Part shown: piece by piece, positions 1 through 62,992 of the stretch
How the letters are laid out: the number at the start of each line of letters is the position of its first letter
Numbering within the stretch: the first letter of the stretch is position 1
NCBI RefSeq assembly: GCF_032854445.1
Contig: NC_088302.1
Location: 1,364,001 to 1,428,000, forward strand
Reading direction: 5' to 3'
DNA length: 64,000 nt
Source: Liolophura sinensis
Lineage: Eukaryota > Mollusca > Polyplacophora > Chitonida > Chitonidae
Made by a program: the position numbers and the translations under genes
Notes under the pieces: generated by a model
Databases searched by the model: none
The model's input: only the letters and a program-made list of their open reading frames with translations
Told to the model about the DNA's origin: nothing

Positions 1-945
1 AGGAAGGGTGTGTTGTAGGGAGGCTCTTACCTGTGCTAGTCCTGTCAGGTATCACAGGGTGTGTGATCAGGAGGGGTGGGTGGTAGGGAGCCTCTTACCT
101 GTGCTAGTCCTGTCAGGGTGTGTGGCAGGGAGGCTCTTACCTGTGCTAGTCCTGTCAGGTATCACGGGGTGTGTGATCAGGAAGGGTGTGTGGTAGGGAG
201 CCTCTTACCTGTGCTAGTCCTGTCAGGTATCATGGGATCTGTCATCAGGAAGGGTGTGTTGTAGGGAGGCTCTTACCTGTGCTAGTCCTGTCAGGTATCA
301 TGGGATCTGTCATCAGGAAGGGTGTGTGGTAGGGAGGCTCTTACCTGTGCTAGTCCGGTCAGGTATCATGCGATCTGTCATCAGGAAGGGTGCGTGGTAG
401 GGAGGCTCTTACCTGTGCTAGTCCGGTCAGGTATCACGGGGCGTGTGATCAGGAAGGGTGTGTGGTAGGGAGCCTCTTACCTGTGCTAGTCCGGTCAGGT
501 ATCATGGGATCTGTCATCAGGAAGGGTGTGTTGTAGGGAGGCTCTTACCTGTGCTAGTCCTGTCAGGTATCACGAGGCGTGTGATCAGGAAGGGTGTGTG
601 GTAGGGAGGCTCTTACCTGTGCTAGTCCTGTCAGGTATCACGGGGCGTGTGATCAGGAAGGGTATGTGGTAGGGAGGCTCTTACCTGTGCTAGTCCTGTC
701 AGGTATCACGGGGCGTGTGATCAGGAAGGGTATGTGGTAGGGAGGCTCTTACCTGTGCTAGTCCTATCAGGTATCATGGGATCTGTCATCAGGAAGGGTA
801 TGTGGTAGGGAGGCTCTTACCTGTGCTAGTCCTGTCAGGTATCATGGGGTCTGTGATCAGGAAAGGTATGTGGTAGGGAGCCTCTTACCTGTGCTAGTCC
901 CGAGAGGTATCATGGGGTCTGTGATCAGGAAGGGTGTGTGGTAGG
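1..945. repeat. 68-bp tandem array containing PFAS exon 20 end and donor
   Basis: About 14 units are spaced 68 bp apart (for example at 126, 194, 262 and on to 874), with one short unit. On the gene strand each carries GAGCCTCCCTACCACA (exon 20) and AGCACAG|GTAAGAG (donor). The array may continue to the left. Confidence 0.95.
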
Positions 946-1102
946 GAGGCTCTCCCCTCTCCCTCAGGCCAGCTTGTTCTTGCTCCACACACTCGGGGTT
1001 ACACTGTAACCGCTCCAGCTGGAAGCTTGTCTGTTCCCACAGGTCCCTCAGTTGAGTCATCCTGTGGGTCAGTACCTCCTTAGTCCCCACGCTCACACTC
1101 AC
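889..1102 (-). CDS. PFAS: PFAS exon 20 (last exon seen)
   Basis: It encodes [11 protein letters not shown] and [16 protein letters not shown], then [13 protein letters not shown], just before the glutaminase domain. The acceptor is TGGTAG|G. The proposed donor AGCACAG|GTAAGAG lies in the first unit of a 68-bp array, so the exact 3' end is less certain because each array unit offers the same donor. Confidence 0.88.
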
Positions 1103-4100
1103 CTACCAGTACACAAGGGATGTGGTTCAGGCACTCCGACACAAAATACTTATTTCTATGATTGATGGTTTATGTTATACTCAAGACTATTTCAGCTCTA
1201 CGGAGGAGGCCAGCATTATGGTGGGAGGAAACAGGGCAGAGCCTGTGGGAAACTGCTGGTTGCTGGCACATGACCTTCCTACATGCTGAAGGCACAAAGT
1301 AAGACTGTTTACACTGTTGAGGAGAAACCTGGTAAAGCCCGGAGAACTAACTATATATCATTTTGTCTGACCTTATTTGTTCATTTATTTGATCTGTGCT
1401 TAATGTTTTACTCATGGATATTTCATTTCTATGATGGAGGTCAGATTAACGAGAGAAGTCTGTAATATTTATTGACTTATTTATTTATATGCTTGGAGTG
1501 TTGCAAAGTCCACAATCTGAAATAAGAGTCTTTGACTTTCCAAGGAAGTACGAAAGGGTTAAGGAGTTTGCATCTATGCATGTCCAGAAACCCAGGGTGA
1601 GGGGTGCTGGGAGGAGTCAAATACAGGACAGTGAGACTGATTGATGAATAATGCCTTACCAATGGCTCATCAGACTTTCTGGATGATCCAATCAGGAAGC
1701 AGGGTACATCTTTGGACTGGTAAAACTTTGGTACGACATCTCTGTTGTAGTTTGGGATCTCAAGAACCACACCAAGCTCTTCTGCAAACAGTACTTCTAT
1801 CTCACTCCCTGCAAATTATGGTGTGCATCTGATAACATAATACATGTATGGTCATCTGATAACATAATATGTGCATATTCTCTTTCCTGAAACAATAAAA
1901 ATATTTCAAACAAACATTATGAAAAAGTGGGAAAGTTAAGTTGTCTTTGTACTGATCAATTGCTTCAATATTAACCCACCCTTCTCCACAAAAATATTAT
2001 GTCTGGCTCATCTTGACAAAAATATTATGTCGGACTCATCATGACAAAAATATTATGTCTGACTCACCATGACAAAAATATTATGTCTGTCTCATCATGA
2101 CAAAAATATTATGTCCGGTTCATCATGACAAAAATATTATGTCTGTCTCATCATGACAAAAATATTATGTCTGGCTCATCTTGACAAAAATATTATGTCG
2201 GACTCATCATGACAAAAATATTATGTCTGTCTCATCTTGACACAAATATTATGTCTGTCTCATCATGACAAAAATATTATGTCCGGCTCATCTTGACACA
2301 AATATTATGTCTGTCTCATCATGACAAAAATATTATGTCTGACTCATCTTGACAAAAATATTATGTCGGACTCATCATGACAAAAATATTATGTCTGTCT
2401 CATCTTGACACAAATATTATGTCTGGCTCATCTTGACACAAATATTATGTCTGTCTCATCATGACAAAAATATTATGTCTGACTCATCTTGACAAAAATA
2501 TTATGTCGGACTCATCATGACAAAAATATTATATCTGACTCACCATGACAAAAATATTATGTCTGTCTCATCATGACAAAAATATTATGTCTGGCTCATC
2601 TTGACAAAAATATTATATCTGGCTCATCTTGACACAAATATTATGTCCGGCTCATCATGACAAAAATATTAAGTCTGGCTCATCATGACAAAAGTACTGA
2701 AACCCTTGAAATGCATTCAGTGATTAACCATATTGTCTGAAACGCTCAAAAATTGTTACATCATTGAAAAAACAGAGGTTATTTGTATTAAAAGATATAG
2801 ATGCAAAACATGTAGAAGACAGTAGACATTTCCAGAAGAAGCATGTTTTTACCATCTTCAAATGCAGGAATGTCGACATGAATCCCACAATTCCCTGCAA
2901 ATGCCATCTCAAGGAGACAGGTAATCAGTCCTCCGTCACTGACGTCATGCCCTCCAGTCAACAGGCCCTCTGAACACAACACAATAATACTCAGGCTGAA
3001 AACGGACACTCATGTCTGGCCAGACCCAAACTTTGCAGTACTTGGCCATGTTATCAATGGTTAATGCCAAATCCACACACTACCCACATAAAAACACTCT
3101 CAATGAAGCCACAACTAAGCTACATACATGTGCAATGAAACTGAGCCAATCAAGTGGAACAGCCCACCACAACATGAAGGAACGCTTTACTGCCGACGAT
3201 GTAACTGCTGTTTGTCATATTATCAATACAATGACAGTTTCTGATTGGCCCCTTTGTAAGTTTCAGCAGCAAAGGTAATACTTACTAATTTAATTTGCTT
3301 CTAAAAATGAAAGCTTTTTGGGGAAAATTTTTAGGTCAAATCGAGTGTTGCCACATCTTTCAGGAAGAAAGTCGGCTTTCAAACTGAATACAAAACCATG
3401 CACAATGGTGTGATTGCGGGACACTAAATAGCCTTTACAAACAGCTCGCTACCTTGAACACGACTCTGTCTGACAATGAATGCCTGTACAAACAGCTTTG
3501 GGTCATACAGAATGCCTTTACAAATAGCTTTGGGTCATAACAAATTCCTGTGCAAACAGCTTTGGGTCACACTAAATGCCTAAATGCTTGGGGCCTCCAT
3601 GGCTCAGTTGGTTAGCGCCCTAGCCCAGCGTAATGACCAACGCGGTTGCTGTGAGTTCAAGTCCAGCTCATGCTGGCTTCCTCTCTGGCCGTATGTGGGA
3701 AGGTCTCTCAGCAACCTGCAGATGGTCGTGGGTTTCCCCCTGAGCTGTGCCCGGTTTCCACCCTCCATAAGGCTGGCCGCCATCATTTAAGTGAAATATT
3801 CTTGAGTACGGCATAAAACACCAATCAAATAAAATAAATAAATGAATAAACAAACAGCTCCCTACTTCGTACATGATTCTGTGTGACACTTTAGGTCATA
3901 CTGAATGCCTGTACAAGCTGCTTTGGGTCACACTGAATGCCTGTACAAACAGCTTTGGGTCATACAGAATGCCTGTACAAACAGCTTTGGGTCACACAGA
4001 ATGCCTTTTACAAATAGCTTTGAGTCACACTAAATGCCTGTACAAATAGCTTTGGGTCATACAGAATGCCTGTACAAACAGCTTTGGGTCACACAGAATG

Positions 4101-7100
4101 CCTTTTACAAATAGCTTTGAGTCACACTAAATGCCTGTACAAATAGCTTTGGGTCACACAGAATGTCTGTACAGGCAGCCTTGGGTCATACAGAATGCCT
4201 GTACAAACAGCTCTGGTCATACCGAATGTCTGCACAAACAACTCTGGGTCACACTGAATGCCTGTACAAACAGCTTTGGGTCACACTGAATGCCTGTACA
4301 AACAGCTTTGGGTCACACTGAATGCCTGTACAAACAGCTTTGGGTCATATTGAATACCTGTACAAACAGCTTTGGGTCACACAGAATGCCTGTACAAACA
4401 GCTTTGGGTCACACAGAATGCCTGTACAAACAGCTTTGGGTCACACAGAATGCCTGTACAAACAGCACAATACCTTGTATAAGGTTCTGCGTGACGTTGA
4501 AAGCCTGTACAAACAGTTGAGGGTCATCTAAGTCTGGGCTGTCATCTCCGAGCTGCTGATAGCACTGGGCTAAAGCTGACCCACCAAGTCGGTTGCGACC
4601 CCTAGAGAAAGGCACATACAGAAGTGCCCCTGTGAGGAAAGTACAAATACAGAGCATTACAAATACAGAGCACCATTACAAATACAGAGCACCATTACAA
4701 ATCCACACCCTGTACTCACATTATTTAATAATTTCTTTTTTGTTTTTATGTTAAACTCTACATGAGATCATATTAAAACATCTTGTGCAAAGAGCTGTAC
4801 ACAAAGAATACAGGAGTGTTTCACTGATACCATGACTGTCAGTTTTATGTTTGGAGGAAAGTGACGTTCCTCAGGTAAACCATCGACACAAGCTACTGAG
4901 AAACTTTCCCACAAGTGATGTACAGATTTGCTTTCACCTTCACACTGACGAAAACGGCCTCCCCATGTGTCCTAGAGGCTTTCACACTGGCAAAAATGGC
5001 CTGCCCATGTGTCCTAGAGGCTTTCACACTGGCGAAAACGGCCTTCCCATGTGTTCTAGAGGCTTTCACACTGGCGAAAATGACCTCCCCATGTGTCCTA
5101 GGGGCTTTCATACTGGCGAAAACGGCCTCCCATGTGTCCTAGAGGCTCCACACTGGCGAAAACAGCCTCCCCATGTATCCTAGAGGCTCCACACTGGCGA
5201 AAACGACCTCCCCATGTGTCCTAGAGGCTTCAAGGATAAGCCCAGCGCCGATCATGAGCAGCGAATGTCAAGCTTAAGACAACTGAGCGATCAATGGTGC
5301 CTACACCATGCCATACAGATATGTAAGTGTTTACTTACCCTTGTCATAGGTACACTTGAGGTCTGGTGTGATAGTGCCTTCATCATGCCATACAGATATG
5401 TAAGTGTTTACCTACCCTTGTCATAGCTACACTTGAGGTCTGGTGTGATAGTGCCTTCATCATGCCATACAGATATGTAAGTGTTTACCTACCCTTGTCA
5501 TAGGTACACTTGAGGTCTGGTGTGATAGTGCCTTCACCACGCCATACAGATACGTATATGTTTACCTACCCTTGTCATAGGTACACTTGAGGTCTGGTGT
5601 GATGGTGCCTCCACCAGGCCATACACATATGTAAGTGTTTACCTACCCTTGTCATAGGTACACTTGAGGTCTGGTGTGATGGTGCCTTCATCATGCCATA
5701 CAGATATGTAAGTGTTTACCTACCCTTGTCATAGGTACACTTGAGGTCTGGTGTGATGGTGCCTCCACCACACCACACCAATACCTAAGTGTTTACCTAC
5801 CCTTGTCATAGGTACACTTGAGGTCTGGTGTGATGGTAGCTGTGATATCTTCGCATCCAGCATACACAGATATGACCAGTGTGCCTACGACAATATAAAC
5901 ACACATTACTGTTTCATGGATAACAAATTCCTGAATTTGACTTGACATGTTCTATGTGTTAAATTCAGTTTCATAGAGGGTAATAAGGCATTTCAGTGGA
6001 TCACTTCCTCTAAAGTTTCCAATGTCACACACAGACACCTTACATTACACTCCAGGGTCCAAATGAAATACAAAATTTACACAAACAAGGTGTAAACGAG
6101 TGTACAAGGTAGGTGCACAGATAATAATTTACATGCACCAACTTTAAACCACTCAGATATATTTAATGACATAGTATTGAACTCCCATCAGAAATCAGAT
6201 TTGCCATGAGAACAAGGCAATTACCAAACCTATGAAATGTTAGAACAGTTTTACATGCTCAGTCCATACGCACAATGTGCATGTGCTCAAGGTTTACTAC
6301 ACGGACTGGCAATTACTGACCCGGAGCTTTGATGGTGTCCTGTCCAACCCTGGCTGCCATACTCAGCGAGTCCTTCCCACCGTCCACCGCAATCCCCAAG
6401 TCCTTCATGACAGCACACATGGCCTTACAGGCATCCACCAGAGCTGCCCCCTCCCCAGGTAACTTAGCAGGCCACATCCAGTTACCGCTACACTTCACAT
6501 CCTGCAACAAAGATATAAAACGCTTCACATCCCACAACAAAGATACAAACACTTCACATCCCACAACAAAGATACAAACACTTCACATCCTGCAACAAAG
6601 ATACAAACACTTCACATCCTGCAACAAAGATACAAAAAATTGACATCCCACTACAAAGATACAAACACTTCACATCCTGCAACAAAGATACAAATGCTTC
6701 ACATCCTGCAACAAAGATACACACTTCACATCCCACAACAAAGATACACACACTTCACATCCTGCAACAAAGATACACACACTTCACATCCTGCAACAAA
6801 GATACAAACACTTCACATCCTGCAACAAAGATACCAATACTTCACATCCTGCAACAAAGACACAAACATTTCACAACCCACAACAAAGATACACACTTCA
6901 CATCCCACAATAAAATTACACACACTTCACATCCTGCAACAAAGATACAAACATTTCACACCCACAACAAAGATACAAATGCTTCACATCCTGCAACAAA
7001 GATACACACTTCACATCCCACAACAATGACACACACACTTCACATCCTACAACAAACATACAAACACTTCACATCCTGCAACAAAGACACAAACATTTCA

Positions 7101-10100
7101 TATCCCACAACAAAGATACAAACACTTCACACCCCACAACAAAGATACAAACACTTCACATCCTGCAACAAAGATACAAATGCTTCACATCCTGCAACAA
7201 AGATACACACTTCACACCCCACAACAAAGATACACACACTCCACATCCTACAACAAAGATACAAACACTTCACACCCCACAACAAAGATACAAACACTTC
7301 ACATCCTGCAACAAAGATACAAACACTTCACACCCCACAACAAAGATACAAATGCTTCACATCCTGCAACAAAGATACACACTTCACACCCCACAACAAA
7401 GATACACACTTCACATCCTACAACAAAGATACAAGCACTTCACACCCCACAGCAAAGATACAAACACTTCACACCCACAACAAAGATACAAATGCTTCAC
7501 ATCCTAAAACAAACATACAAACACTTCATATGCCACAACAAAGACACAAACACTTCACATCATGCAATAAAGATACAAACACTTCACATTCTGCAACAAA
7601 GATACAAACAAAAGGTGTTGACACCTGAATCCTACAATATGTTTAACCTGAATCCTAAAATGTTTACAAATGCATTTATGTCAGAAGCTCGAACAACCCA
7701 TACAAAATGCTGAAGACGTTTTAAGCAAATATTTATTATGTGCATACAAAATATGAAAATTATATTTTTATTTTCTATCAGGTTTGTTTCATTGTCGGAT
7801 GCACTGAAACCAGCTGTACAAATTTTCACAATGGGATATACATTACCTTGAAGTCAACTAGCATGTGCACAGGTGACATGTTCACAGAACAACATCTACA
7901 TGCAAAGCACTTGTCTCTTTCTGGAACCATGTCTATCACATGTGTATCATGTCCATGTCCATGGAACCATGTCTTTCACACAGATGTAGAACAACAAATG
8001 TGAAGTACAACCACACATTCCCTGGCTATGTTGTGATGGTCTTGTGTCTAGGAGGTATGTAACAGCCCCTGATAAATGACCTAAAGTTTCGCCCATCAGT
8101 TTCTGTCGTAAAGTTTCCCACGGGCTGAGTTAGTGGAAAAATGACAGTAGTGGGTGATTAGCTCCCGGCCTGTTCCACCACCCTTCATGGCAACTATGGT
8201 CTCTAATCAGCGCCACGGGGGTTGAAGTCACTGCCAGTGAGTACAGGTCTCCCGACCAGCCCATGTCCCTTTATTAGTTTACTCATGAACTGAACCCAAC
8301 AAATTATGCAGTCAGGCGATGACTATTACAAACCTACAAATTGCAACCATGGTCTTGATCCATGGTCATGGCAAAAAAGCTATCTACAAATTGTACCATG
8401 TATGATCCATGGTCATGGCAAACAAGCTACGTACAAATGCTACCATGTTTGATCCATGGTCATGGCAAACAAGCTACGTACAAATGCTACCATGTATGAT
8501 CCATGATCATGGCAAACAAGCTACCTGCAAACGCTACCATGTATGATCCATGGTCATGTTAAATAAGCTACCTACAAATGCTACTAGGTATGATCCATGG
8601 TCATGGCAAACAAGCTACCTACAAATGCTACCAGGTATGATCCATGGTCATGGCAAACAAGCTACCTACAAATGCTACCATGTCTGATCCATGGCCATGG
8701 CAACCAAGCTACCTACAAATGCTACCATGTATGATCCATGGTCATGTCAGACAAGCTATGTACAAATGCTACCACATATGATCCATGGTCATGTCAGACA
8801 AGCTATGTACAAATGCTACCATGTATGATCCATGATCATGGCAAACAAGCTACCTACAAATTCAACCATGTATGATCCATGGTCATGTCAAACAAGCTAT
8901 GTACAAATGCTACCATGTCTGATCCATGGCCATGGCAAACAAGCTACCTGCAAATGCTACCATGTATGATCCATGGTCATGACAAACAAGCTACGTACAA
9001 ATGCTACCATGTATGATCCATGGCCATGGCAAACAAGCTACCTACAAATGCTACCATGTATGATCCATGGTCATGGCAAACAAGCTACCTACAAATGCTA
9101 CCATGTATGATCCATGGTCATGGCAAACAAGCTCCGTACAAATGCTACCATGTATGATCTATGATCACACCAAACAAGCTACCTGCAAACGCTACCAGGT
9201 ATGATCCATGGTCATGTCAGACAAGCTACCTACAAACGCTCCCATGTATGATGCATGGTCATGTCAGACAAGCTACCTACAAACGCTACCAGGTATGATC
9301 CATGGTCATGTCAAACAAGCTACGTACAAATGCTACCATGTACGATCCATGATCACGCCAAACAAGCTACCTGCAAACGCTACCAGGTATGATCCATGGT
9401 CATGTCAGACAAGCTACCTACAAACGCTACCATGTATGATCCATGGTCATGTCAGACAAGCTACCTACAAACGCTACCAGGTATGATCCATGGTCATGTC
9501 AAACAAGCTACCTACAAATGCTACCATGTATGATCCATGGTCATGTCACACAAGCTACCTACAAACGCTACCAGGTATGATCCATGGTCATGTCAAACAA
9601 GCTACGTACAAATGCTACCATGTATGATCCATGATCATGTCAAACAAGCTACCTACAAATGCTACCATGTACGATCCATGATCATGCCAAACAAGCTACC
9701 TGCAAATGCTACCAGGTATGATCCATGGTCATGTCAAACAAGCTACGTACAAATGCTACCAGGTATGATCCATGATCATGTCAAACAAGCTACCTACAAA
9801 TGCTACCATGTACGATCCATGATCATGCCAAACAAGCTACCTACAAATGCTACCATGTATGATCCATGATCATGTCAAACAAGCTACCTACAAATGCTAC
9901 CATGTATGATCCATGATCATGTCAAACAAGCTACCTACAAATGCTACCATGTATGATCCATGATCATGTCAAACAAGCTACCTACAAATGCTACCATGTA
10001 CGATCCATGATCATGCCAAACAAGCTACCTGCAAATGCTACCAGGTATGATCCATGGTCATGGTAAACAAGCTACCTGCAAATGCTACCAGGTATGATCC

Positions 10101-19100: not shown

Positions 19101-22100
19101 ACAGCTACAGAATTATTACTTTAAAGACAAGGGAAGACAAGTTTTTGACAAGGGAAAGACAAGTTTTTGACAAGGGAAAGACAAGTTTTTGACAAGGGAA
19201 AGACAAGTTTTTGACAAGGGAAGACAAGTTTTTCCATTTTCCATTCTTCTTTAAGAATATCTAGAATAGTAGAAAAAAAACAAAAAAACACTTTCATCCC
19301 ACAAGTGGATTAGGGCAGAAATGAATTACAGGTGAACGACCTAAAGTTTCACCCTAGGACTTGGAAAGTGTATCCCATGATTCACTGTGCTGACTGTGGT
19401 TCTTACTGACTGGGTGCCGTATGAGAGCATCAGGGGTGGTCAGGGGATCATAAGGACAGTTCAAGAATACAACAGACAAGCTCACGCTTCACTGAGCAGT
19501 TAGTCTATGCTCCTATCACCAACAGTTCATGTTTTCCTCAGTTTTAATCAGTGATTTTAGCACATGCATTTCGCAACAGGTTGATTGTCTTATTACTATT
19601 ATTTTGTGATAAATGGGAATTTAGGAGAAATCTCTCTGGAGATTAAGTGTGACTACCCAGTGCCTTTACGCATGTCGAGTGCCGAGTCACATATCCGTTT
19701 TTAAACATCAGGGCTCTCTGTATACAGAATTTAGCTAACCTGAATGATCGGTTTGTCTGCAGAGTATATTGTGTAAGTACATTCCTTGTTTGGCCTAGTC
19801 ATGCTTTGAGACAGTGTTTGAAATTTGAAGATTTGTAATAGAAATCATCTGTCTCAATAGTTTCTTTTCATTCATGAGTATATTTAGAGATGTACATGTA
19901 TACCTACTGGAAACCGGCCCACCTCACTGTCAGTGACTTGACCACATGTGGCCAGGATTAGCTACCAGTGCTGCTAAGTGCCATGCAGGGTAATGAAAGG
20001 GGTTGGGGGTGGTGGTGACTAGTCGCTCTCTTCTGTCATCTTGCTGCCAACTCAGATTGTGCCAAAGTAAACCACAGTGATACTTTAGGTTATTTTCCGT
20101 ACTATCGCTGTGAGGAGTTTCCAATGTACTCTCAACCATTCACAAAATCTTCACTTTCAAACAAGTCAGACTCTTCCACCCATACCCCTGAAAGCTGTCG
20201 TATAAGCCTCCTCTCCCAGTGCTTCCGCCAGACGTGACTGAGAGTAGAGGAGAGTTATGCCTCACTGTGACTGAGAGTAGAGCAGAGTTAAGCCTCCCCA
20301 TGACTGAGGTTAGAGAGTTAATCCCTACTGTGACTAAGAGTAGAGGAGAGTTAAGCCTCACTGTGACTGAGTGTAGAGCAGAGTTAAGCTTCCCTGTCAC
20401 TGAGGTTGGAGAATTAAGCCTCACTTTGACTGAGAGAGTAGAGAGTTAAGCCTCACTGTGACTGAGAGTAGAGCAGAGTTAAGCCTCACTGTGACTGAGT
20501 TTAGAGCAGAGTTAAGCCTCCCCATGACTGAGGTTAGAGAGTTAATCCCTACTGTGACTAAGAGTAGAGGAGAGTTAAGCCTCACTGTGACTGAGTGTAG
20601 AGCAGAGTTAAGCTTCCCTGTGACTGAGGTTAGAGAATTAATCCCTACTGTGACTAAGAGTAAAGGAGAGTTAAGCCTCACTGTGACTGAGTGTAGAGCA
20701 GAGTTAAGCCTCCCCGTGACTGAGGTTAGAGAATTAATCCCTACTGTGACTAAGAGTAGAGGAGAGTTAAGCCTCACAGTGACTGAGTGTAGAGCAGAGT
20801 TAAGCCTCCCCATGACTGAGGTTAGGGAGTTAATCCCTTCTGTGACTAAGAGTAGAGGAGAGTTAAGCCTCACAGTGACTGAGTGTAGAGCAGAGTTAAG
20901 CCTCCCCGTGACTGATGGTAGAAAGTTAATCCCCACCGTGACTGAGGGTAGAGAGTTAAGCCTCACTGTGACTGAGGGTAGAGGAGAATTAAACCTCACA
21001 GTTACTGAGGGTAGAAAAGAGTTAAGTCTCACCGTGATTGAGGATAGAGAAGAGTTAAGCCTCACTGTGACTGAGGGTAGAGGAGAGTTAAGCCTCACAG
21101 TGACTGAGGTTAGAAGAGAGTTAAGCCTTACTGTGACGGAGGGTAGAGAGCTAAACCTCACTGTAACTGAGGGTAGAGGAGAGTTAATCCCCACCATGAC
21201 TGAGGGTAAAGGCGAGTTAACCCTCACGGTGACTGAGGGTAGTGGAGAGTTAAGCATCAGGGTGACTGAGGGTAGAGGAGAGTTATGCCTCACCATGACT
21301 GAGGGTAGAGAACTAAGCCTCACCGCCACTGAGGGTAGAGAGTTAAGCCTCACTGTGACTCAGGGTAGAGAACTAAGCCTCACCGTAACTGAGGGTAGAG
21401 GAGAGTTAATCCAAACCGTGACTGAGGGTAAAGAAGAGTTAAGCCTCACTGTGACTGAGGGTAGAGAGCTAACCTCACCATGACTGAGGGCAGAGGAAAG
21501 TTAAGCCTCATCATGACTGAGGGTAAAGAAGAGTTAAGCCTCACCAAAACTGAGGGTAGGGAAGAGTTAAGCCTCACAGTGACTGAGGGTAGAGAGTTTA
21601 GCCTCACTATAACTGAGGGTAGAGAGTTCAGCCTCACGCGACTGAGGGTAGAGTTTAGCCTCACCGTAACAGAGGGTAAAGAGTTAAGCTTCACCATAAC
21701 TGAGGGTAGAGAGTTTAGCCTCACCATTGCCGCCTGCTCCCTGATCATGTATACTACAGATGGGGTTCTGCCTCATCTCCACACACCCCCGTATCACCCT
21801 GTTCAGCTTCTGCTCCATTTCTGCATCTCCCCGCTGCACCGCCCCATAATCCAGCTCTGCCTGGTTGTCCCCCTGTACCTGAATAGAGGAGGCCGCCCCA
21901 CCCCCGACACCTATCCTGTACACCGGGCCTCCCAGCTTCACCACTTCCATTCCTGACCGAGGCAGAAGATGAGGAGACATATTCAATGGAAGAACATTAA
22001 CCAAATTGCTAGTCATCTAATTCAGCATATCTAATTCAGCATGATGTATCCTTCAAACTCCAAAATTAGATTAAATTTCTAACTGAGAAGATTAAATGTA

Positions 22101-38045: not shown

Positions 38046-38514
38046 GAAAGACCAATCACATCAAAAAATTAAAAAAAATATTTTCACTGTATCCTGATCC
38101 AGTCTGCTTGTAGGAGGATAGTCCAGCCAAATTTGTACTGCTACCTCACTGGATTGCCATGCCAAAGACACCAAATGATACTGAGGCCAGTTAGGGTACA
38201 CTAAGAACCACCAAGCTTTGTACCATGTGAAGTGTAACATCCTGATATAAGCACTATGACTGAGGAAAATCAACTATAAAGCCATTCGCTGAATTCATAA
38301 AATGGTTTTACTATATACTAGTACAAGCATAACAAACATACATACAGGATATATGTATGCAAACATCTTCATTAAAATGTCACAATGAAATTATCAATGT
38401 ATATGTATCTATACATGGCTGATGAAATGAGAGAATTACTTGAGCAATGCTGACAACATGATTCATAATATCACAAGGTTGTCTCAGATCATGACAGTGC
38501 CCCTTAACTACTTC

Positions 38515-38885
38515 AATGGCTGGGGATTTAATCAATTAGCCAATCGAGAAGGTGTTTTAATCATTTACGCTGCCCAATCGAGAAGGTGTTTTAATCATTC
38601 AGGCTGCCCAATCGAGAAGGTGTTTTAATCATTTAGGTGATCCAATCAAGGTGTTTTAATCATTTAGGCTGCCCAATTGAGAAGGCGTTTTAATCACTTA
38701 GGTGATCCAATCAAGAAGGTGTTTTAATCATTTAGGCTGCCCAATCGAGAAGGTGTTTTAATCATTTAGGCTGCCCAATCGAGAAGGTGTCTTAATCATT
38801 GAGGTGATCCAATCGAGAAGGTGTTTTAATCATTTAGGCTGCCCAATCAAGAAGGTGTTTTAGTCATTTAGGTGACCCAGCCGTG
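38515..38885. repeat. 33-34-bp array downstream of FANCB stop
   Basis: About 11 units of CCAATCGAGAAGGTGTTTTA and ATCATTTAGGCTG. It begins 80 bp beyond the FANCB stop, so it may lie in the 3' UTR. Confidence 0.93.
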
Positions 38886-38963: not shown

Positions 38964-39449
38964 TCAAGACATTGTCTCATACAACTGAAGAACCGCAGAG
39001 TCTGTGGACTGAATGTGTTTCCGGAGATCAGAAAGAAATTCTTGAAAATGCTTTTGCGAAATGACATCGTCTTTCCGTAGACGTTGAACATTTTTTTGCA
39101 TGCATGAGAAGCCATGGCGGATATCCTGCACAGCATCAGTGGAGTGGCCCTGAACAATGTCATCTGATTGCACCTCCATTATGTCATCATCTCTGATGCA
39201 GTTATCAAGTAGTTCGGAGAGTTTAGACGTGGAAAATTCTGCTTCCTGTCTCAGCATCTGCCGCAGTCTGTGAAGACTCCTAACACTGACAGCCTCGCTC
39301 TGAGCCTCTGGTATCATGGCAACATCATCAGGAAGGACATGATAGAGGTAATGCAAGACGGACCACAGTTGAGACTTGTTTCTGTCAGAAAAAAATTTGA
39401 AATCATCAGTGATAAAGTAACTCTTAGCTTTCCCACTCAACGATCCTCC
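38964..39449 (-). CDS. FANCB: FANCB last exon
   Basis: It encodes GGSLSGKAKSYFITDDFKFF, WSVLHYLYHVLPDD and a helical tail ending VLQLYETMS, then TGA at 38966-38964. The acceptor is TTTTGGGAG|GGA, preceded by a good T-rich tract. Only phase 0 avoids a stop at this acceptor. Confidence 0.85.
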   Translation of the reverse strand, partial: GGSLSGKAKSYFITDDFKFFSDRNKSQLWSVLHYLYHVLPDDVAMIPEAQSEAVSVRSLHRLRQMLRQEAEFSTSKLSELLDNCIRDDDIMEVQSDDIVQGHSTDAVQDIRHGFSCMQKNVQRLRKDDVISQKHFQEFLSDLRKHIQSTDSAVLQLYETMS

Positions 39450-42400
39450 CTCCCAAAAGAATTCAACAGAAAGAAACAAAAATGGTGACCAAGTTTCTCA
39501 TGTCAGATCTTACTTTTTTGCATATCTACCTTTTTGTTGCTTTACACCATACTATTAGCACATTTTTACTCACATGATCCTGTCCATGTTTATGGGTAGG
39601 AGAAACAGAGTGCCCAGAGTACACCACTGAAATGTAATGAGTAACTGGAAAATTCTCCCAAATCTGACATGATCAGAATCACTGCTCCTCACCGAGTTCT
39701 CATCAACAATGGAAGCTGGTGATCAGCATCACTGTTCCTCTCCGAGTTCTCATCAACAATGGAAGCTGGTGATCAGCATCACTGCTCCTCATAGAGATCT
39801 CATCAATAATGGAAGCTGGTGATCAGAATCACTGCTCCTCACAGGGATCTCATCAACAATGGAAGCTGGTGATCAGCATCACTTCTCCTCACAGAGATCT
39901 CGTGAACAATGGAAGCTGGTGATCAGCATCACTTCTCCTCATAGAGATCTCATCAACAATGGAAGCTGGTGATCAGCATCACTTCTCCTCACAGAGATCT
40001 CATCAACATTGGACGCTGGTGATCAGCATCACTTCTCCTCACAGAGATCTCATCAACAATGGAAGCTGGTGATCAGCATCACTTCTCCTCATAGAGATCT
40101 CATCAACAGTGGAAGCTGGGGATCAGCATCACTTCTCCTCATAGAGATCTCATCAACAATGGAAGCTGGTGATCAGCATCACTTCTCCTCACAGAGATCT
40201 CATCAACATTGGAAGCTGGTGATCAGCATCACTTCTCCTCACAGAGATCTCATCAACAATGGAAGCTGGTGATCAGCATCACTTCTCCTCATAGAGATCT
40301 CATCAACAGTGGAAGCTGGGGATCAGCATCACTTCTCCTCATAGAGATCTCATCAACAATGGAAGCTGGTGATCAGCATCACTTCTCCTCATAGAGATCT
40401 CATCAACAATGAAAGCTGGTGATCAGAATTACTGCTCCTCACCGAGTTCTCATCAACAATGGAAGCTGGTGATCAGAATCACTTCTCCTCACACAGATCT
40501 CATCAACAATGGAAGCTGGTGATCACAATCACTGCTCCTCACTGAGTTCTCATCAACAATGGAAGCTGGTGATCAGCATCACTGCTCCTCATAGAGATCT
40601 CATCAATAATGGAAGCTGGTGATCAGCATCACTGCTCCTCTCCGAGATCTCATGAACACTGGAAGCTGGTGATCAGCACCACTTCTCCTCACCGAGATCT
40701 TGTGAACAATGGAACCTGGCGATCAGCATCACTTCTCCTCACAGAGATCTTGTGAACAATGGAAGCTGGTTATCAGCATCACTTCTCCCCAAAGAGATCT
40801 CATCAATAATGGAAGCTGGTGATCAGCATCACTTCTCATCATAGAGATCTCATCAACAATGGAAGCTGGGGATCAGCATCACTTCTCATCACCGAGTTCT
40901 CATCAACAATGGAAGCTGGTGATCAGCATCACTTCTCATCACCAAGATCTCATCAACAATGGAAGCTGGTGATCAGCATCACTTCTCATCATAGAGATCT
41001 CATCAACAATGGAAGCTGGTGATCAGCATCACTTCTCATCACCAAGATCTCATCAACAATGGAAGCTGGTGATCAGCATCACTTCTGCTCACCAAGATCT
41101 CATCAACAATGGAAGCTGGTGATCAGCATCACTTCTGCTCACCGAGATCTCACCAACAATGGAAGCTGGTGATCAGCATCACTTCTCATCGCCAAGATCT
41201 CATCAACAATGGAAGCTGGTGATCTGCATCAATTCTGCTCACCGAGATCTCATCAACAATGGAAGCTGGTGATCAGCATCACTTCTCATCACCAAGATCT
41301 CATGAACAAAGGAAGCTGGTGATCAGCATCATTTCTCCTCACAGAGATCTCATGAACAATGGAAGCTGGTGATCAGCATCACTTCTCATCACCAAGATCT
41401 CATGAACAATGGAAGCCCGGGAAATTTCCTGCCTGAGTCTAACCACCGACCCTGAAGTGCACGTGCCTTGGAAGTGAGGAACTGTTTCCTCAGAAAATAT
41501 ACAAACAGCTGAAATATTAGATTAGCTATTTTGATGGAATAGATACAGGTCAAGAAAATAAGCTAGAGCCTACACCCTTTCTCCTAGCTTGAGACTTACC
41601 TGAACATGACCTTCAGCAATGGCTGCCTTGTTGTTGTTGTTGTCAGCTGAAGTCTGACCCACCTCAAGTGGTCAAGTCCCTGGGGACACAGATAACAGTC
41701 ATACAGAGGCTGGTGAGTCAAGCCAGCCCTGGTCAGTGCTGTGGCCACACTGGTCAGTGCTGGTGGAGTGGATATGACAGACAGTCTAACACCAGACTGC
41801 ACCGCATCCAGGGACAGGCGGGATCTGTACACCTCCACATCTACAACACAAGACACAATCAATACTCCTGATTTAGTTTGAAGTATATTTTCTACAATTG
41901 TGAAGTGAATTTCATATGACAAGGGTAAAGTCTGTGACATGATATAAAAAAAACAAGACAGCCCTAGGAGATGCCGGCAGTATCCCTTGTCAAATGGCAA
42001 ACTGCCTCCAGAAAAGATCCACTCAATATCTCTAGAGAGAGGCTGTCAAAACGTTAGCATGTACACTGAGGTGACATGACACTACTGTTGTGGTCACATT
42101 CAGCCATTTACTATGCCCACTCAGTGTTGTCCTGTAACTAACATTCTGACAGATGTATCACACTGAACAGTTCACATAAATGATGGCAACGTTGAAGCTT
42201 GAAGACAATAGGCCTTCAGCAAGTAACTGGCACACTTTCTGACACCTGCGCTCAACTTCCAAACAGAAAGCTCAATGTGTATGCCAAATAGAAAGCTATA
42301 TGTGTATGCCAAATAGAAAGCTATATGTGTATGCCAAACAGAAAGCTCAATGTGTATGCCAAACAACAAGCTCAATGTGTATGCCAAACAGAAGGATAAA

Positions 42401-52121: not shown

Positions 52122-52284
52122 CGTAAAAGCACATGGTTTCGATCTGTCACCGTTGGGTACATATGAAATACCGCGCCATGTGCCTGTCTCGTCGACCAAT
52201 TAACATGCTCCTTACAAAGAAACGTTGCACACTAAAAATGCTAGCCACGTTTAATGCCAATTTTCAGCACAAATAACGAACAAG

Positions 52285-52356
<72 letters not shown>

Positions 52357-53025: not shown

Positions 53026-56000
53026 GTAAGTATTTTGACAATATTTCCTCTTCACTGTCCTGCAAACTTTTGACACCGTGGTAAACCTTTCCTTACTGTC
53101 TTTTTCAGGATAAAGATCCGAGGATAGACAAGCTTCGACAAATGTTTTTAGATGAGTTTGCAGGTAAGGCATAAAGCAGATTTGACAGCATTGTGAGTGT
53201 CATTGAGCAGTGACCGGTGAATGCCTTATGGACGAGGGTTAATAGTTAGGACAAGTTTACGAACTGTTCTGCTGTTCGCTTCAATTACAAAGTGACATGG
53301 ATGTTGCAAGCATATATAGCTCCGTTCTGCACGGTATTAACACGTTGACAGACTCCCTTTGCTGGCTCGTCGTCATATGACTGAAAAATTGTTATGCACG
53401 ACGTTAAACCCTAAGCACCCACTCGCTCTATCTATTTGCTGGCAGAGACCCTAGGAGTAATCTCCCTTCTGACCACCAGTGAAATAAGTTTCAGTATTTT
53501 TATGGTCATCCTGCACATCTCTGTGGCTCGACTCTGTTCCTTTCACGTTTAGCCAAAGAGATACAGCTGGCTTAATTAAAATCAAACACACTTCCTGCAT
53601 CAAAGTCCAGAGTATTTTCGCCCGGCCCAAACATCACACCATCGTTTTAGTAACAACATGACAGGAATAATCTCCCTTGTGCATGTTAAGATTGGAGGAT
53701 GAAAATACTTTTGACTGCGAGCGACACAGTCTGTTTGATCTGAATTAAGCCAGCAGTGTCTCTGTGGCTAGTAGCAGAAGGACACGGTCCAAGCCATGGA
53801 GATGCGCAGGGCTTTTGCCCCCGAAACATCCTAATATTCTGCAATGAAAATGCCTTTGACTTGTTATATCAGCATTTCTGGAGGGAGTGTTCAGTGGAGA
53901 TCAGCTGGATGTTTTGTTGCCTACTGGTTCAGTTTGGGCCTTAAGTAAGTTGATTAGTCAGGTAACTGGAAAGGTGCTGTGGTTTTCACCAGGAATGGCC
54001 TAACTGGACAGGTGCTGTGGTTTTACCAGACATTGCTTAACTGAACAGGTAGTGTGGTTTCACCAGGCATGGCCTAACTGGATAGGTGCTGTGGTTTTCA
54101 CTGGGCATTGCCAAACTGGACAGATAGTGTGGTTTCACCAGGCATTGCCTAACTGGATAGGTGCTGTGGTTTTCACTGGGCTTTGCCTAACTGGACAGAT
54201 GCTGTGTTTTTCACCAGGCATTGCCTAACTGGACCGGTGCTGTGGTTTCACCAGGCATTGCCTAACTGGACAGGTGCTGTGGTTTTCACCAGGCATTGCC
54301 GAACTGGACAGGTACTGTGGTTTCACCAGGCATTGCCTAACTGGACAAGTGCTGTGGTTTTGACCAGGCAATGCCTACTTTACTCTACCCATAAACCTCA
54401 CCTAACTATTAAAATGCAATATTCTAGAGAATGGCTAACAACGTACTTTAAATCTTCAACCTTTTCAAGCACTTAAGCACTTTTTTGTGTGGAATTTATT
54501 CCTATAATTATTATGAAAGTGATGCTAAAAATGATTTGTTTGTGTCACCAAAGATGCAAGCTTCGTAAAACTGTGCAAATTATTTTACTACACCCCATAG
54601 CTCTCTCAGAATGTTTCAAAATATTGGTTGTAGAGGCTGTTGAAAAGGTTGGAAGAAAAGGTATGAAAAGGTATCAAATTAAATGAATCAGTATATTCTT
54701 TCAGGATATTATGGAAGGCTATGATGGCTTTCCATTGTTTACCTCTTGTTTGATTTCAGAGAATATTGAGAAGGGTCTATACGATGACCGCGACGTGAGC
54801 CGTGTCAAATGTGAGGACCAGTATGTGAGGTGTTTTGTGGAGGACAGAGATAAGCTGGAGGATTCCTTGGCTATGATGCATGAGTCCCTGAAATGGAGGA
54901 TGGAAATAGGATTAAATGGTACATGTTACTACAGGATTAAATGGTACAGGTTAATGATTAAATAATACAGGTTACTGCAGGATTATGTGGTACAGGCTAT
55001 TACAGGATTAAATGGTACAGGTCACTGTAGGACTATATGGTATGGATTACAGCAGGGTTAAATGGTTCCCGTTACTGCAGGATTGAATGGTACAGACTAC
55101 TGCAGAATTAAATGATACAGATTTCTGCAGGCTTAAATGGTACAGGCCACTGAAACATTAAAAGGTACAGGTTACTGCAGGATTAAATGGTACAGGCTAC
55201 TACAGGACTAAATGATACAGGTTACTGCAGGATTAAATGGTACAGGTTACTGAAGGATTAAAAGGTAAGGGTTACATCAGGATTAAATGGTACGGGCTAC
55301 TGCAGGTTAAGTGGTGCAGGTTATCAAAGGATTGAATGGTACACGTTACTTTAAGATTATGTCCGGGTTTCTCCAGGATTAAATGGTACACTCCTGATAA
55401 CTTGACTTTGATTGCATAATATCTTACTTGTTTAATATTTATTACTTTTTCTTTTCTTTGAGAAACTCATAGATTGTAACTCTGGTGGTTTGTAGTATGT
55501 GCAAATTCCGTTCTCTATTCTGTTTCTTTCTTATTTCAGATTTAACTGAAGATAACTTTAACCGATGGATGTGGGATTTAGGGGCTGTTTTCTTTCATAA
55601 CACAGATAAGGATGGACACAAAATTTGTGAGTGTTTGTGATCACTAGGAGTAGTTTTCTTTTTTTAAAGATCATTAAATGCAAGGGAAAGTCAGATGTAA
55701 TATAAATGTCCATTGAGTTTGGAAATATTGTAATTAACATGTCCGTTGAGTTCTAATGTGTTTTACAGCCTCTAAATATCTTCATGCCTCGATGATGCCC
55801 GATGTCATGAATTACACGAATTCTAGGGTAGTGTGATCAGCTTTATAGTTAAAGTCATCACAAACATGATACGTGTAACTTGTTTGATGATTGGAGTGAA
55901 GATGACTTTGTCTTGTTTTGGGGCTGGCATTGTTTGGGTATGGATGGTGCCTGGCTGCCAGGTGAAGGAGATAGTGACTTTAGCTCTGACTACGAACATC

Positions 56001-59000: not shown

Positions 59001-62000
59001 ATGCTTGATTGAAGTAAACTCAAATGAGTCAGTAATGCTAAACTGCTTGGTATTTATATTGATGAACATCTTCCCTGGAACACACAAATCAGTAATGTGT
59101 GTAAAAAGGTTTCGAAATTGTTAGGCATTCTACGAAGGAAGAGAGCTCGTCTAACATGTCACTGAGGTGATATTTTCTGTAAGCCTTATGTTCTTCTTCA
59201 CTTTGATTATTGCTGTTCAGTATGGGGAAACTGCTCAGTTAAAAATAGGGAAAGGATAGTCAAGTTTCCCTCCAAACAAACAGCTGCACAATATTGTTCT
59301 TAGATCAGCGACACATAATATCTATGCCCTTAAAGCAAGGACAAATTACATGATAGAAAGTTTTACACATATAGGCATCAAACTCTGGAACTGCCTCTCA
59401 ATACACATGAAAGAAGCCCCTTCCCTATCAAGCCTTCAATCATGCTACCTAAAATTACAGTTATCTGCAGCCCCTTCCCTATCAAGCCTTCAATCATGCT
59501 ACCTAAAATTACAGTTATCTGCAGCCTCTTCCCTATCAAGCCTTCAATCATGCTACCTAAAATTACAGTTATCTGCAGCCCCTTCCCTATCAAGCCTTCA
59601 ATCATGCTACTTAAAATTACAGTTATCTGCAGCCTCTTCCCTATCAAGCCTTTAATCATGCTACTTAAAATTACAGTTATCTGCAGCCCCTTCCCTATCA
59701 AGCTTGCAATCAGGCTACTTAAAATTACAGTTACCTGTAGCCCCTTCCCTATCAAGCTTTCAATCAGGCTACTTAAAATTACAGTTATCTGCAGCCCATT
59801 CCTTATCAAGCTTTGGATCACTTAAAATTAGTTATCTGCAGACAACAACTGCAATGTGCATGTATGCATGTATGCTTTCATTGTATCAACCATCTAGATA
59901 AAATCCTATCTCTCTTACCTTTTTTTTTGTTTAGAATCTAAATGTGATATGTTCAAACCTAAAATATCTGTACGTGTACATTTTTTTTTTAAATTTTGTT
60001 TATACTTAAATTTATTATTCTAGCAAACCTTTTAGTAAGGCTAGGCCCCTGTGACAATCTTGCACACATGTGCATTGTTCGAACCAAACAGAGGGTGGGA
60101 AAGGGGCAATCTCCCACTCACTTGGTCTGTTTTCTGTACATGTGTGTAGGAGTTTCCAGCCAGAAGGGATGGGGGGCAGGAAGGGGTCGGTAATGGGCCG
60201 TCTCCCACTACCCTACTTCTCCAGTTGGGAAAGTTTTGGTGACAGCACTATTGGTTTTGTTGCTTTTTGTAGGTATGAATGTATGTACCTTCACATTTCA
60301 AACTACAGGATGCTTTATCTTGTTTTATATATATTGATGTTTTTTGTTTTTTCTTTCCCATGTATTGTTTTCTTTGTGAAGGCCTTGGGGAAGAACAGTT
60401 ACGTTGTACATTGACCGAGCTATAAATACAGATATTATTATTATTATATATATATATATTATATTAGGGGATATCACTATATATGGTGATTGCTTTTAGT
60501 TCAGTTAGCTCTATTTCGGCATAATTTCGTAATAGTATGCATAAATTCCAGTGAAAAATTGCATTAAAGGTCAGAAAGTTTGAAGATTTACAGTACTTAG
60601 CGGATTAATGAGTGTGTGTTTTCAGGATTACTCTATCTGTTATCCAAAAGTCAGTAATGACATAGATGTGAAATGTTCTGTGAGTAATCACATAGAAATG
60701 AAATGTCTGGTGAGTAATGACATAGACGTAAAATGTCTGGTGAGTAATCCCATAGACATGAAATGTCTGGTGAGTAATGACATAGATGTGAAATGTCTGG
60801 TGAGTAATCCCATAGACGTGAAATGTTTGGTGAGTAATGACATAGACGTGAAATGTCTGGTGAGTAATGACATAGACGTGAAATGTCTGGTGAGTAATGA
60901 CATAGGTGTGAAATGTCTGGTGAGTAATGACATAGACGTGAAATGTCTGGTGAGTAATGACATAGACGTGAAATGTCTGGTGAGTAATGACATAGACGTG
61001 AAATGTCTGGTGAGTAATGACATAGACGTGAAATGTCTGGTGAGTAATCACGTAAACGTGAAATGTTTGGTGAGTAATGACATAGACGTGAAATGTCTGG
61101 TGAGTAATGACATAGACGTGAAATGTCTGGTGAGTAATGACATCGACGTGAAATGTCTGGTGAGTAATCACATAGAAGTGAAGGACACATGTACTCACTC
61201 AGCTGTTTTCTCTTGTAGTATTTGTCAAAGTCAAGGAATACAGGAAAGATTTGAATATGCTGCCAACAGTGAAGAAGTTTTTTGCTCTCGCCTTAGAACA
61301 AGCGTCGCTGGCTGCCCCGGGGGAGAGGATAGTTCTACTGTTTGATATGTTAGATACAGGATTTGCAAACCTGGTAAGCTGTAGCACGTAACTTTTTGAT
61401 GTATTAGACATGGGATTTGCAAACCTGGTAAGCTGTAGCACATAACTGTTTGATGTATTAGACATGGGATTTGCAAACCTGGTAAGCTGTAGCACGTAAC
61501 TGTTTGATGTATTAGACATAGGATTTGCGAACCAGGTAAGATGTAGCACATAACTATTTGATGTTTTAAACACAGGATTTACAAAGCTGTAGCATACATA
61601 ACTATTTGCTAATAGTTATTTGCTAAAACTACTTGGTATGTTAGACACAGATTTGCAAGCCTGGTAAGCTGTAGCACAAAACTACTTGGTATGTTAGACA
61701 CAGATTTACAAACCTGGTAAGCTGTAGCATAAAACTGCTTGATATGTTAGACACAGATTTACAAGCCTGGTAAGCTGTAGCACAAAACTACTGAATATGT
61801 TAGACACAGATTGGCAAGCCTGGTTAGCTGTAGCACAAAACTACTTGGTATGCTAGACACAGATCTACAAACCTGGTAAGTGGAGCACAAAACTACTTGA
61901 TATGTTAGACACAGATTGGCAAGCTTGGTTAGCTGTAGCACAAAACTACTTGGTACGCTAGACACAGATCTACAAACCTGGTAAGCTGTAGCACAAAACT

Positions 62001-62992
62001 ACTTGATATGTTAGACACAGATTGGCAAGCCTGGTTAGCTGTAGCACAAAACTACTTGGTATGCTAGACACAGATCTACAAACCTGGTAAGCTGTAGCAC
62101 AAAACTACTTGATATGTTAGACACAGATTGGCAAGCCTGGTTAGCTGTAGCACAAAACTACTTGGTATGCTAGACACAGATCTACAAACCTGGTAAGCTG
62201 TAGCACAAAACTACTTGATATGTTAGACACAGATTGGCAAGCCTGGTTAGCTGTAGCACAAAACTACTTGGTACGCTAGACACAGATCTACAAACCTGGT
62301 AAGTGGAGCACAAAACTACTTGATGATTTAGACACAGATTTGCAAGCCTGGAAAGATGTAGTACATAGCTATTTTGGATAACAAATTTTCTTTTCTTTTA
62401 TTTCAGGACATGGATCTTATAAAGTACTGCTTAACCTGTTTCAAATTTTATTTCCCAGGATTGTTAGGTATGTAGTAAGTGTGGCATTTTCCACAGTTAG
62501 CCTGAAGTGTTTGTGAATTTCCTGACATGCTTTATGCTTTCACGTCTGTATGGGCAGTATAATACCACACCATCCACCATCTTGTAAACAAGTCCGACCC
62601 TATTTTAAGCCCATAATGCATCATGCATGCAGATGATGACATCATTATGCAATCACTCTGTTGAATATGTCCCAGGAAGGATTGTGCATCTTCTGACGGC
62701 TGTGGTTTTGATCAACACAAAATAGAAACTGAAGCGTTCCAGTCATATGCATGAGGCCTCACCTGTAGGAACACATAGGCACATGTATCTCAACAACAGT
62801 TTCCATGTATTCATCTTTTTTTCCTGAGTTCATTTGATTTCCACCTTTATATCAACAGTTCTGAGGTCAAGGTTGGCATTAGGTTTCATCATCATCATGA
62901 AGTCTGATCTTTCTAAATGTTTTAATATGAGATGTCCTTCATTTTCTTTCCAGCATATATTCTTGTGTTTGAAATGCCGTGGATTTTTAATG
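52981..62992 (+). CDS. MOSPD2: Motile sperm domain-containing protein 2, 5' seven exons
   Basis: MOSPD2 is an ER-anchored protein whose MSP domain binds FFAT motifs and whose CRAL-TRIO domain handles lipid contacts. The window holds the N-terminus and most of the CRAL-TRIO part. Collinear matches to vertebrate MOSPD2 are YDDRDVSRVK (YDARDVERL), LKWRMEIGLNDL (FQWRKEISVNDL), KFFALALEQ with VLLFDMLDTGFANLDMDLIK, and CFKFYFPGLLAYILVFEMPW (CFKVYYPKYLSKIVIFDMPW). The seven exons have consistent phases and about 176 codons. The MSP domain and membrane anchor lie past the right edge. Intron 4 is 5.6 kb and holds a decayed LINE. Confidence 0.92.
53109..53163 (+). CDS. MOSPD2: MOSPD2 exon 2
   Basis: It encodes DKDPRIDKLRQMFLDEFA, aligned with the N-terminal helix that precedes the CRAL-TRIO domain. 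The acceptor is TTTTCAG|G and the donor GCAG|GTAAGG. Confidence 0.85.
53365..53430 (+). mobile_element. Second-family SINE tail in MOSPD2 intron 2
   Basis: GTCATATGACTGAAAAATTG is followed by ACGACGTTAAACCC and a CACTCGCTC end. It is the least changed tail copy in the window. Confidence 0.6.
53950..54375. repeat. 36-38-bp array, MOSPD2 intron 2
   Basis: About 11 units of GCATTGCCTAACTGGACAGG and TGCTGTGGTTTTCACCAG. Confidence 0.93.
54760..54918 (+). CDS. MOSPD2: MOSPD2 exon 3
   Basis: It encodes ENIEKGLYDDRDVSRVK through MMHESLKWRMEIGLN, the CRAL-TRIO N-lobe. The acceptor is ATTTCAG|AG. The donor AAATG|GTACAT and the last exon bases are repeated as the unit of the following 25-bp array. Confidence 0.92.
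54900..55395. repeat. 25-bp array from MOSPD2 exon 3 end and donor
   Basis: About 19 units of GGATTAAATGGTACAGGTTA plus CTGCA. The first unit is the exon end GGATTAAATG|GTACATG. Confidence 0.95.
55540..55626 (+). CDS. MOSPD2: MOSPD2 exon 4
   Basis: It encodes DLTEDNFNRWMWDLGAVFFH and NTDKDGHKI, like human DLNESSIPRWLLEIGVIYLHGYDKEGNK. The acceptor is ATTTCAG|AT and the donor AATTT|GTGAGT. Confidence 0.92.
55630..57169. other. MOSPD2 intron 4, left part
   Basis: A 63-codon frame at 56519-56710 (MCAEESKTVPNNSVLNVV, Cys-rich, with CDDC) could be a remnant of the LINE's first ORF. Otherwise no feature is recognised. Confidence 0.35.
57170..60450 (+). mobile_element. Decayed non-LTR retrotransposon (LINE) with endonuclease and RT remnants
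   Basis: It lies in MOSPD2 intron 4 in sense orientation. Interrupted frames show an endonuclease remnant (HSDFNVDFSK, STLMDHIYVTSTEVVVSG), then RT segments: LDKSKASGLDNINAEFL, PLHKGSPKNKVEKYRPVSV, the catalytic FADDT at 58806-58820, and KLLGIYIDEHLPWN. Many stops and frameshifts make it non-functional. The 3' end runs into ATT/AT repeats near 60440, typical of CR1/L2/Jockey-like tails. The region near 59350-59830 has expanded into a 60-bp array. The 5' boundary is uncertain and may extend to about 56500. Confidence 0.85.
59405..59830 (+). repeat. 60-bp tandem array from the LINE C-terminal coding region
   Basis: About seven units read PSLSSLQS...LKLQLSA in the LINE frame, directly continuing WNCLSIHMKEAPSLSSLQS. 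The unit is a multiple of three, so the frame stays open. Confidence 0.9.
60655..61185. repeat. 30-bp array with consensus donors, MOSPD2 intron 4
   Basis: About 18 units of CTGGTGAGTAATGACATAGA and CGTGAAATGT. Every unit carries CTG|GTGAGT in sense orientation. It ends about 30 bp before exon 5. Confidence 0.96.
61219..61373 (+). CDS. MOSPD2: MOSPD2 exon 5
   Basis: It encodes FVKVKEYRKDLNMLPTVKKF and ERIVLLFDMLDTGFANL. The acceptor is CTTGTAG|TA and the donor AACCTG|GTAAGC. The last 30 or so exon bases plus the donor are the unit of the 54-bp array that follows. Confidence 0.93.
61345..62350. repeat. 54-bp array from MOSPD2 exon 5 end and donor
   Basis: About 18 units of GGATTTGCAAACCTGGTAAG type with TGATGTATTAGACA and CTGTAGCAC. 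Near units keep the exon frame (FDVLDMGFANL); distal units drift and lose the G of the donor (GGTTAGC). Confidence 0.96.
62407..62467 (+). CDS. MOSPD2: MOSPD2 exon 6
   Basis: It encodes DMDLIKYCLTCFKFYFPGLL. The acceptor is ATTTCAG|G and the donor TTAG|GTATGT, phase 1. Confidence 0.94.
62954..62992 (+). CDS. MOSPD2: MOSPD2 exon 7
   Basis: It encodes AYILVFEMPWIFN, aligned with human KIVIFDMPWLMN. The acceptor is TTTCCAG|CA and the donor AATG|GTAAGT. No further exon is recognisable up to 64000. Confidence 0.92.

Follow-up and report, generated by a model that had tools for sequence, protein, structure and literature searches.

Minisatellite arrays spanning exon–intron junctions in genes of the chiton Liolophura sinensis resemble the mirages of amphioxus

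Introduction

Tandem repeats that span exon–intron boundaries are known in amphioxus as 'mirages', and were reportedly first described in a 2002 paper in Nucleic Acids Research. According to two later papers, amphioxus mirages occur in Adh3, the globin genes BflGb6 and BflGb9 and the troponin C gene (PMC3087553, PMC3902484), with the second of these papers adding a mirage in PGBD5 and mentioning troponin C (PMC3902484). Data on Adh3 together with RT-PCR on the globins suggest that splicing is normal, and both allelic and somatic instability have been reported (PMC3087553). The original prediction on the DNA considered here, which knew of no named class for arrays of this kind, was therefore mistaken on this point (PMC3087553, PMC3902484).

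Two other systems invite comparison. In Drosophila, intron gain and sliding by tandem duplication with proto-splice sites likewise copies exonic sequence along with splice signals; however, the outcome there is a new intron position, whereas in the chiton an existing intron is lengthened, with no new intron shown (PMC2891723). In abalone, intron 3 of a TSSK1-like gene holds a polymorphic 27-bp array whose copy number varies among individuals; this is likewise an intronic minisatellite, in a gastropod gene, but its unit, unlike those of the chiton junction arrays, is not described in the available part of the paper as containing an exon edge (PMC6905558). Among the papers listed in the literature searches, judged mostly by their titles and the starts of abstracts and including few subscription papers, no report of mirage-type repeats outside lancelets was found. 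The chiton arrays are mirages in a phylum for which no earlier report was found.

The window analysed here is a stretch of 64,000 nucleotides (C8:1364001-1428000) of the 609-Mb genome of Liolophura sinensis. In the two genes with junction arrays in the window and ten further genes of the same genome, 14 arrays have a unit that spans an exon–intron boundary, and 182 of the 212 intronic copies of the junction keep GT or AG. By structure and splice signals, as read from the assembled sequence, the chiton arrays are mirages. As in amphioxus, a minisatellite-like unit crosses the boundary on either the donor or the acceptor side and many copies keep the splice dinucleotide; unit lengths overlap as well, at 25–146 bp in the chiton vs 10–72 and 150–160 bp in amphioxus. 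The chiton arrays differ in reaching up to ~58 copies and nearly filling an intron, whereas 3 and 6 copies are given for BflGb6, and in their host, a mollusc rather than a cephalochordate. Their frequency can also be estimated, at 8 of 430 edges in the ten further genes. For amphioxus mirages normal splicing and length or somatic polymorphism are reported, whereas the chiton arrays are known from one assembly.

Gene models and array content of the window

Based on TRF rows merged by hand, 36 arrays make up 23,527 of the 64,000 bases of the window. Exon models were obtained by spliced protein-to-genome alignment against human proteins, with an aligner purpose-written for this study. For PFAS, on the minus strand, the reference consisted of the human PFAS residues of PDB entry 9n9w plus a human C-terminus from outside PDB, and MOSPD2, on the plus strand, was likewise aligned to a human sequence from outside PDB; a CRAL_TRIO domain in the joined MOSPD2 exons (E 9.4e-31) supports the latter model. 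Because PDB alignments for PRPF8, POLR2B and IARS1 gave fragments only, human sequences from outside PDB served as references; the fragments agree with them by eye. The references for the PFAS C-terminus, MOSPD2, VARS1, CLTC, IARS2 and LARS2 were checked via the resulting alignments only, and mean identity ranges from 0.42 to 0.93 per gene. Exon boundaries rest on protein conservation and splice signals rather than cDNA. Three boundaries, the donors of PFAS exons 14, 18 and 21, were added by hand on account of a poorly conserved tail or the end of the model, and all three proved positive. Exon numbers, matched via the arrays, are lower than those of the original prediction by two in PFAS and by one in MOSPD2.

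Junction arrays in PFAS and MOSPD2

The PFAS exons concerned and their arrays are as follows, in window coordinates.
1..953 (TRF 5-953), minus strand: 68-bp array crossing the PFAS exon 18 donor, with 65 exon bp within the array
889..1102, minus strand: PFAS exon 18 (spliced alignment to human PFAS; donor at 889/888)
3889..4466, minus strand: 32-bp array after PFAS exon 15, beginning 7 bp past the donor; unit without the donor
4474..4629, minus strand: PFAS exon 15 (spliced alignment)
5294..5837, minus strand: 77-bp array crossing the PFAS exon 14 donor, ~7 copies, 37 exon bp
5801..5884, minus strand: PFAS exon 14 (spliced alignment)
6321..6501, minus strand: PFAS exon 13 (spliced alignment)
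6490..7611, minus strand: 29-bp array over the acceptor of PFAS exon 13, ~39 copies
20233..21711, minus strand: ~33-bp array in the intron following PFAS exon 7; unit with the donor GTGAGGCT and ~3 exon bases
21725..21952, minus strand: PFAS exon 7 (spliced alignment)

The array with the most copies is that of PFAS exon 18. Counting the exon's own donor, which comes first, the junction is present 59 times, with the consensus CACAG/gtaagag. The 58 further copies, every one with GT, fill almost the whole of the 4-kb intron, the array extending beyond the window into the neighbouring 3 kb (to L003:6940) and measuring ~4.0 kb and ~58 copies in all. The tail of exon 18 is a poorly conserved linker, hence the hand-added donor in the counts, and conservation in the tails of exons 14 and 18 is too low to tell which donor is used. 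In the same neighbouring sequence (L003), the donor of PFAS exon 21 carries an 84-bp array of ~27 copies. The unit at exon 13 has 12 exon bp preceded by AG and a pyrimidine tract.

A repeat unit containing the exon edge with its splice site had been proposed for four PFAS exons, there numbered 9, 15, 16 and 20. For the last three, the present analysis bears this out, at the acceptor of exon 13 and the donors of exons 14 and 18. For the first, now exon 7, the unit does have the donor but just ~3 exon bases, and the array was treated as borderline and left out of the counts. At a fifth exon (formerly 17, now 15), the unit had been taken as the last coding bases of the exon; it is indeed exonic, resembling ~31 exonic bases only, but these end 12 bp short of the donor.

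In MOSPD2, both exons that had been named (3 and 5, now 2 and 4) have units combining exon edge, donor and intron, as predicted.
54760..54918, plus strand: MOSPD2 exon 2 (spliced alignment; CRAL_TRIO in the joined exons)
54908..55390, plus strand: 25-bp array crossing the MOSPD2 exon 2 donor, ~20 copies, 72% matches, 11 exon bp
61219..61373, plus strand: MOSPD2 exon 4 (spliced alignment)
61337..61589, plus strand: 54-bp array crossing the MOSPD2 exon 4 donor, ~5 copies, 37 exon bp
61625..62365, plus strand: second array, in the MOSPD2 intron after exon 4; its 53/106-bp unit resembles the exon 4 junction unit by eye

Recurrence in further genes and direction of copying

The ten further genes were PRPF8, POLR2B, POLR3B, POLR1B, IARS1, IARS2, LARS2, VARS1, a second VARS-like gene (VARS2-like) and CLTC. 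The initial set was picked by Pfam family, blind to repeats; CLTC was added later, as were flanks of genes in the set, some of these genes being known positives by then; a 13-kb region (L017, L018) stayed outside the set for want of a reference. An automatic filter gave 245 acceptors and 234 donors in the 12 genes which, with the three hand-added PFAS donors, make 482 edges. Arrays were counted as junction-spanning when the unit held at least 8 exon bp and at least 8 intron bp. Of the 14 such arrays, PFAS and MOSPD2 (52 edges) hold six, of which three would be left without the hand-added donors, and the ten other genes (430 edges) hold eight, namely one each in VARS1, VARS2-like, POLR3B and LARS2 and two each in POLR1B and PRPF8. 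No junction-spanning array was found in IARS1, IARS2, POLR2B or CLTC.

A test independent of TRF put exon-edge copies above chance. At 16 of the 482 edges, the adjoining intron holds a partial copy of the last 50 bp of the exon, where 0.35 are expected; a copy was counted when its score exceeded the 99.9th percentile of those for mismatched introns. Three of these copies score 30, slightly below the null maximum of 31. In 12 of the 16, the copied stretch stops no more than 4 bp short of the edge. In the first version of this test, 13 of 253 edges were positive (0.25 expected), with edges picked by hand in all genes, as was also the case for the earlier array count of 6 in 37.

The original claim that the arrays were seeded by exon edges is upheld. 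The exonic part of the unit is the gene's own coding sequence. In several cases this part encodes residues conserved in human while the copies are intronic, as at PRPF8 exon 20, whose last codons (VINYK) are conserved with human; on this reading of the sequences, copying went from exon to intron. The same observation bears on whether the arrays might instead be artefacts of assembly or a dispersed satellite that inserted at exons. Long arrays are a recognised assembly hazard, and to that extent general knowledge speaks for such a reading. However, a coding-derived unit argues against it, as does the fact that units deviate on average by 1 to 13% from the array consensus around the junction. 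Moreover, a first-look search of the genome with one unit of the 14, that of PFAS exon 18, placed 15 of the 15 matches listed at the unit's own locus, and we regard an artefact or a satellite as highly improbable.

Are junctions hotspots?

Across the ten further genes, arrays cover 13.9% of non-exonic bases. Within the ten intron bases next to an exon, the figure is 4.0% on the donor side and 1.1% on the acceptor side, coverage dropping at every step from deep intron to exon edge without a peak. The original prediction had proposed a shared mechanism acting at junctions, to be abandoned if the overlap of arrays with splice sites were no higher than expected from intron coverage; judged by that rule the claim fails, although the comparison is a crude one, given that growth of arrays is directed into introns while exons are shielded from it.

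Seeding was also considered directly, under a null in which each array starts as one unit placed at random. Arrays were collapsed for this purpose, and seeds lying entirely within exons were left out. For the ten genes, this predicts 3.8 to 5.0 junction-spanning arrays, and there are 8 among 71, or 8 among 48 on a strict count (P 0.03 to 0.11). Variants of the null gave 6 of 37 arrays with 2.93 expected (P 0.055); 8 of 63 with 5.07 expected when the period of the best-scoring row was used (P 0.12); 8 seen with 2.4 to 3.2 expected for the primitive period (P 0.002 to 0.011), or 9 with 3.62 when the exon minimum was 5 (P 0.007); and 8 of 41 with 3.06 expected (P 0.009), or 3.84 when GC-weighted (P 0.030). 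With arrays collapsed to one unit, the expectation for the 8 seen was 3.3 to 4.5 (P 0.013 to 0.070), or 3.49 at an exon minimum of 12 (P 0.017); at an exon minimum of 5, 9 were seen and 5.39 expected (P 0.076). The figures given first above (P 0.029 to 0.11 before rounding) are those of the enlarged sample. Observed counts exceed uniform seeding under every null tried, most clearly at donors. Both enlargements of the sample were made once the first P of 0.055 was known, and the last of them added no case.

These figures bear on the proposal that tandem duplications favour donors, for instance because R-loops, or breaks linked to transcription or splicing, form where exons end, and then expand. 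Donors account for 10 arrays in all 12 genes vs 2.5 to 3.2 expected (P below 0.001) and for 5 in the ten further genes vs 1.9 to 2.5 (P 0.04 to 0.10), and the two window genes have 6 junction arrays among 39 vs 1.2 to 1.5. The excess in the window genes is not to be taken at face value, however, because the window was picked for the feature and three of its six positives are hand-added donors, and in the further genes the excess is 1.6- to 2.1-fold and marginal. Furthermore, junctions show no peak in coverage, acceptors number 4 in the 12 genes vs 2.5 to 3.2 expected (little or no excess), and the 10 to 4 split between donors and acceptors is not significant (P 0.11). While a real donor preference is possible, a donor-directed origin appears rather unlikely, and it is doubtful that, in minisatellite-rich invertebrate genomes, donors of transcribed genes are preferred ~2- to 4-fold over matched sequence for tandem duplication through a splicing- or transcription-linked lesion common to molluscs and amphioxus. 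The predicted junction-directed mechanism is therefore weakly supported, by a marginal excess of seeds, mainly at donors, and not by coverage.

Splice signals in the copies

Across the 14 arrays, neighbouring columns predict an intact splice dinucleotide in 185 of the 212 intronic copies, and 182 have one. At donors, 151 of 163 copies keep GT, slightly more than the 143 expected; at acceptors, 31 of 49 keep AG vs 41.9, a deficit that comes mainly from one array. The test is a weak one because the copies of one array are not independent of each other and strongly decayed ones go uncounted; a fifteenth array, that of PFAS exon 15, also entered it, but the junction probe found no intronic copy there. 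Unit length is a multiple of three in 3 of the 14 arrays, with no sign of a preference.

The original prediction had also raised selection for redundant splice sites, whether as spare or as regulatory sites. The donor figure would favour it mildly, but splice dinucleotides overall are kept no better than neighbouring columns, so that such selection is unsupported, and the acceptor shortfall and the LARS2 array, in which 8 of 18 donors are broken, point the other way; retention by selection is thus very hard to credit. The counts would instead fit decoy donors being tolerated and decoy acceptors being mildly selected against, the acceptor figure again coming mainly from one array.

Origin of the arrays

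The arrays are probably molluscan mirages that arose by random local tandem duplication and were tolerated since the exon-proximal copy still works. The units are exon-derived, they recur in independent genes, junctions show no coverage peak and the splice dinucleotides are kept about as well as other columns. On these grounds, a local tandem duplication whose ends chanced to flank an exon edge would have given rise to each minisatellite, such seeds falling more or less at random within the genes of a minisatellite-rich genome. Seeds that disrupt exons would be lost, whereas intronic or junction seeds would survive because the exon-proximal copy keeps the coding sequence whole and its splice site working. 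Slippage or unequal exchange may then lengthen the arrays, so that copies move out into the intron, where up to tens of decoy splice sites would remain, tolerated perhaps more readily when they are donors than when they are acceptors. The mode of growth, correct splicing at the exon-proximal copy and the neutrality of the remaining copies are the conjectural parts of this account.

Implications

Should the frequency of 8 in 430 edges hold, a rough extrapolation to the usual animal gene number would give thousands of introns with near-identical strings of donors or acceptors. Such introns, of which that after PFAS exon 18 with its 58 copies is an example, would be natural competition experiments on how the spliceosome chooses among like sites. 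At that frequency, mirages would also shift from a lancelet curiosity to a trait of minisatellite-rich genomes, and would represent a visible early step of intron lengthening and possibly of intron gain.

Other features of the locus and genome

In the spans of PFAS and MOSPD2 (window, L003 and L004), 44% of non-exonic bases lie in arrays vs 14% in the ten other genes. A candidate exon of FANCB had been suggested as a further junction case, and its guessed, unconfirmed counterpart is listed here.
39670..41416, minus strand: 50-bp array in the putative FANCB region
The open reading frames at 38967-39497, 41599-42045 and 42815-43330 gave no match in Pfam or NCBIfam, so that the FANCB identity is not confirmed, and a query joined from pieces of the frames at 38383-38535, 38967-39497 and 42815-43330 gave no PDB match better than E 0.19. 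Between this region and MOSPD2, an open frame of 437 aa (50889-52199, minus strand), without a Pfam or PDB match, is perhaps a large first exon of the minus-strand gene there.

Eight tandem hemocyanin units lie on the contig of the window, and 14 of 14 PDB matches were named hemocyanin, KLH1 included. This family is molluscan, which identifies the genome as that of a mollusc, in agreement with the original prediction, and led to the rejection of amphioxus as a source of the window. A search across this genome with the PF18072 profile gave no match. The GFP family is expected in amphioxus; a search of the chiton genome for it gave no match, but its control matched nowhere either, which makes this absence weak evidence by itself.

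Within a PFAS intron, an open frame of 170 aa lies on the opposite strand (13690-14199, plus strand), without a Pfam match. Two adjoining frames in a MOSPD2 intron (57554-58114, plus strand) look from their sequence like the remnant of a non-LTR retrotransposon, with no match to Pfam. Lastly, a dispersed, SINE-like short repeat apparently recurs, judging by eye from translations, at ~1056-1346, 3584-3787 and 25203-25385 of the window and also in L010/L011 and L017/L018.
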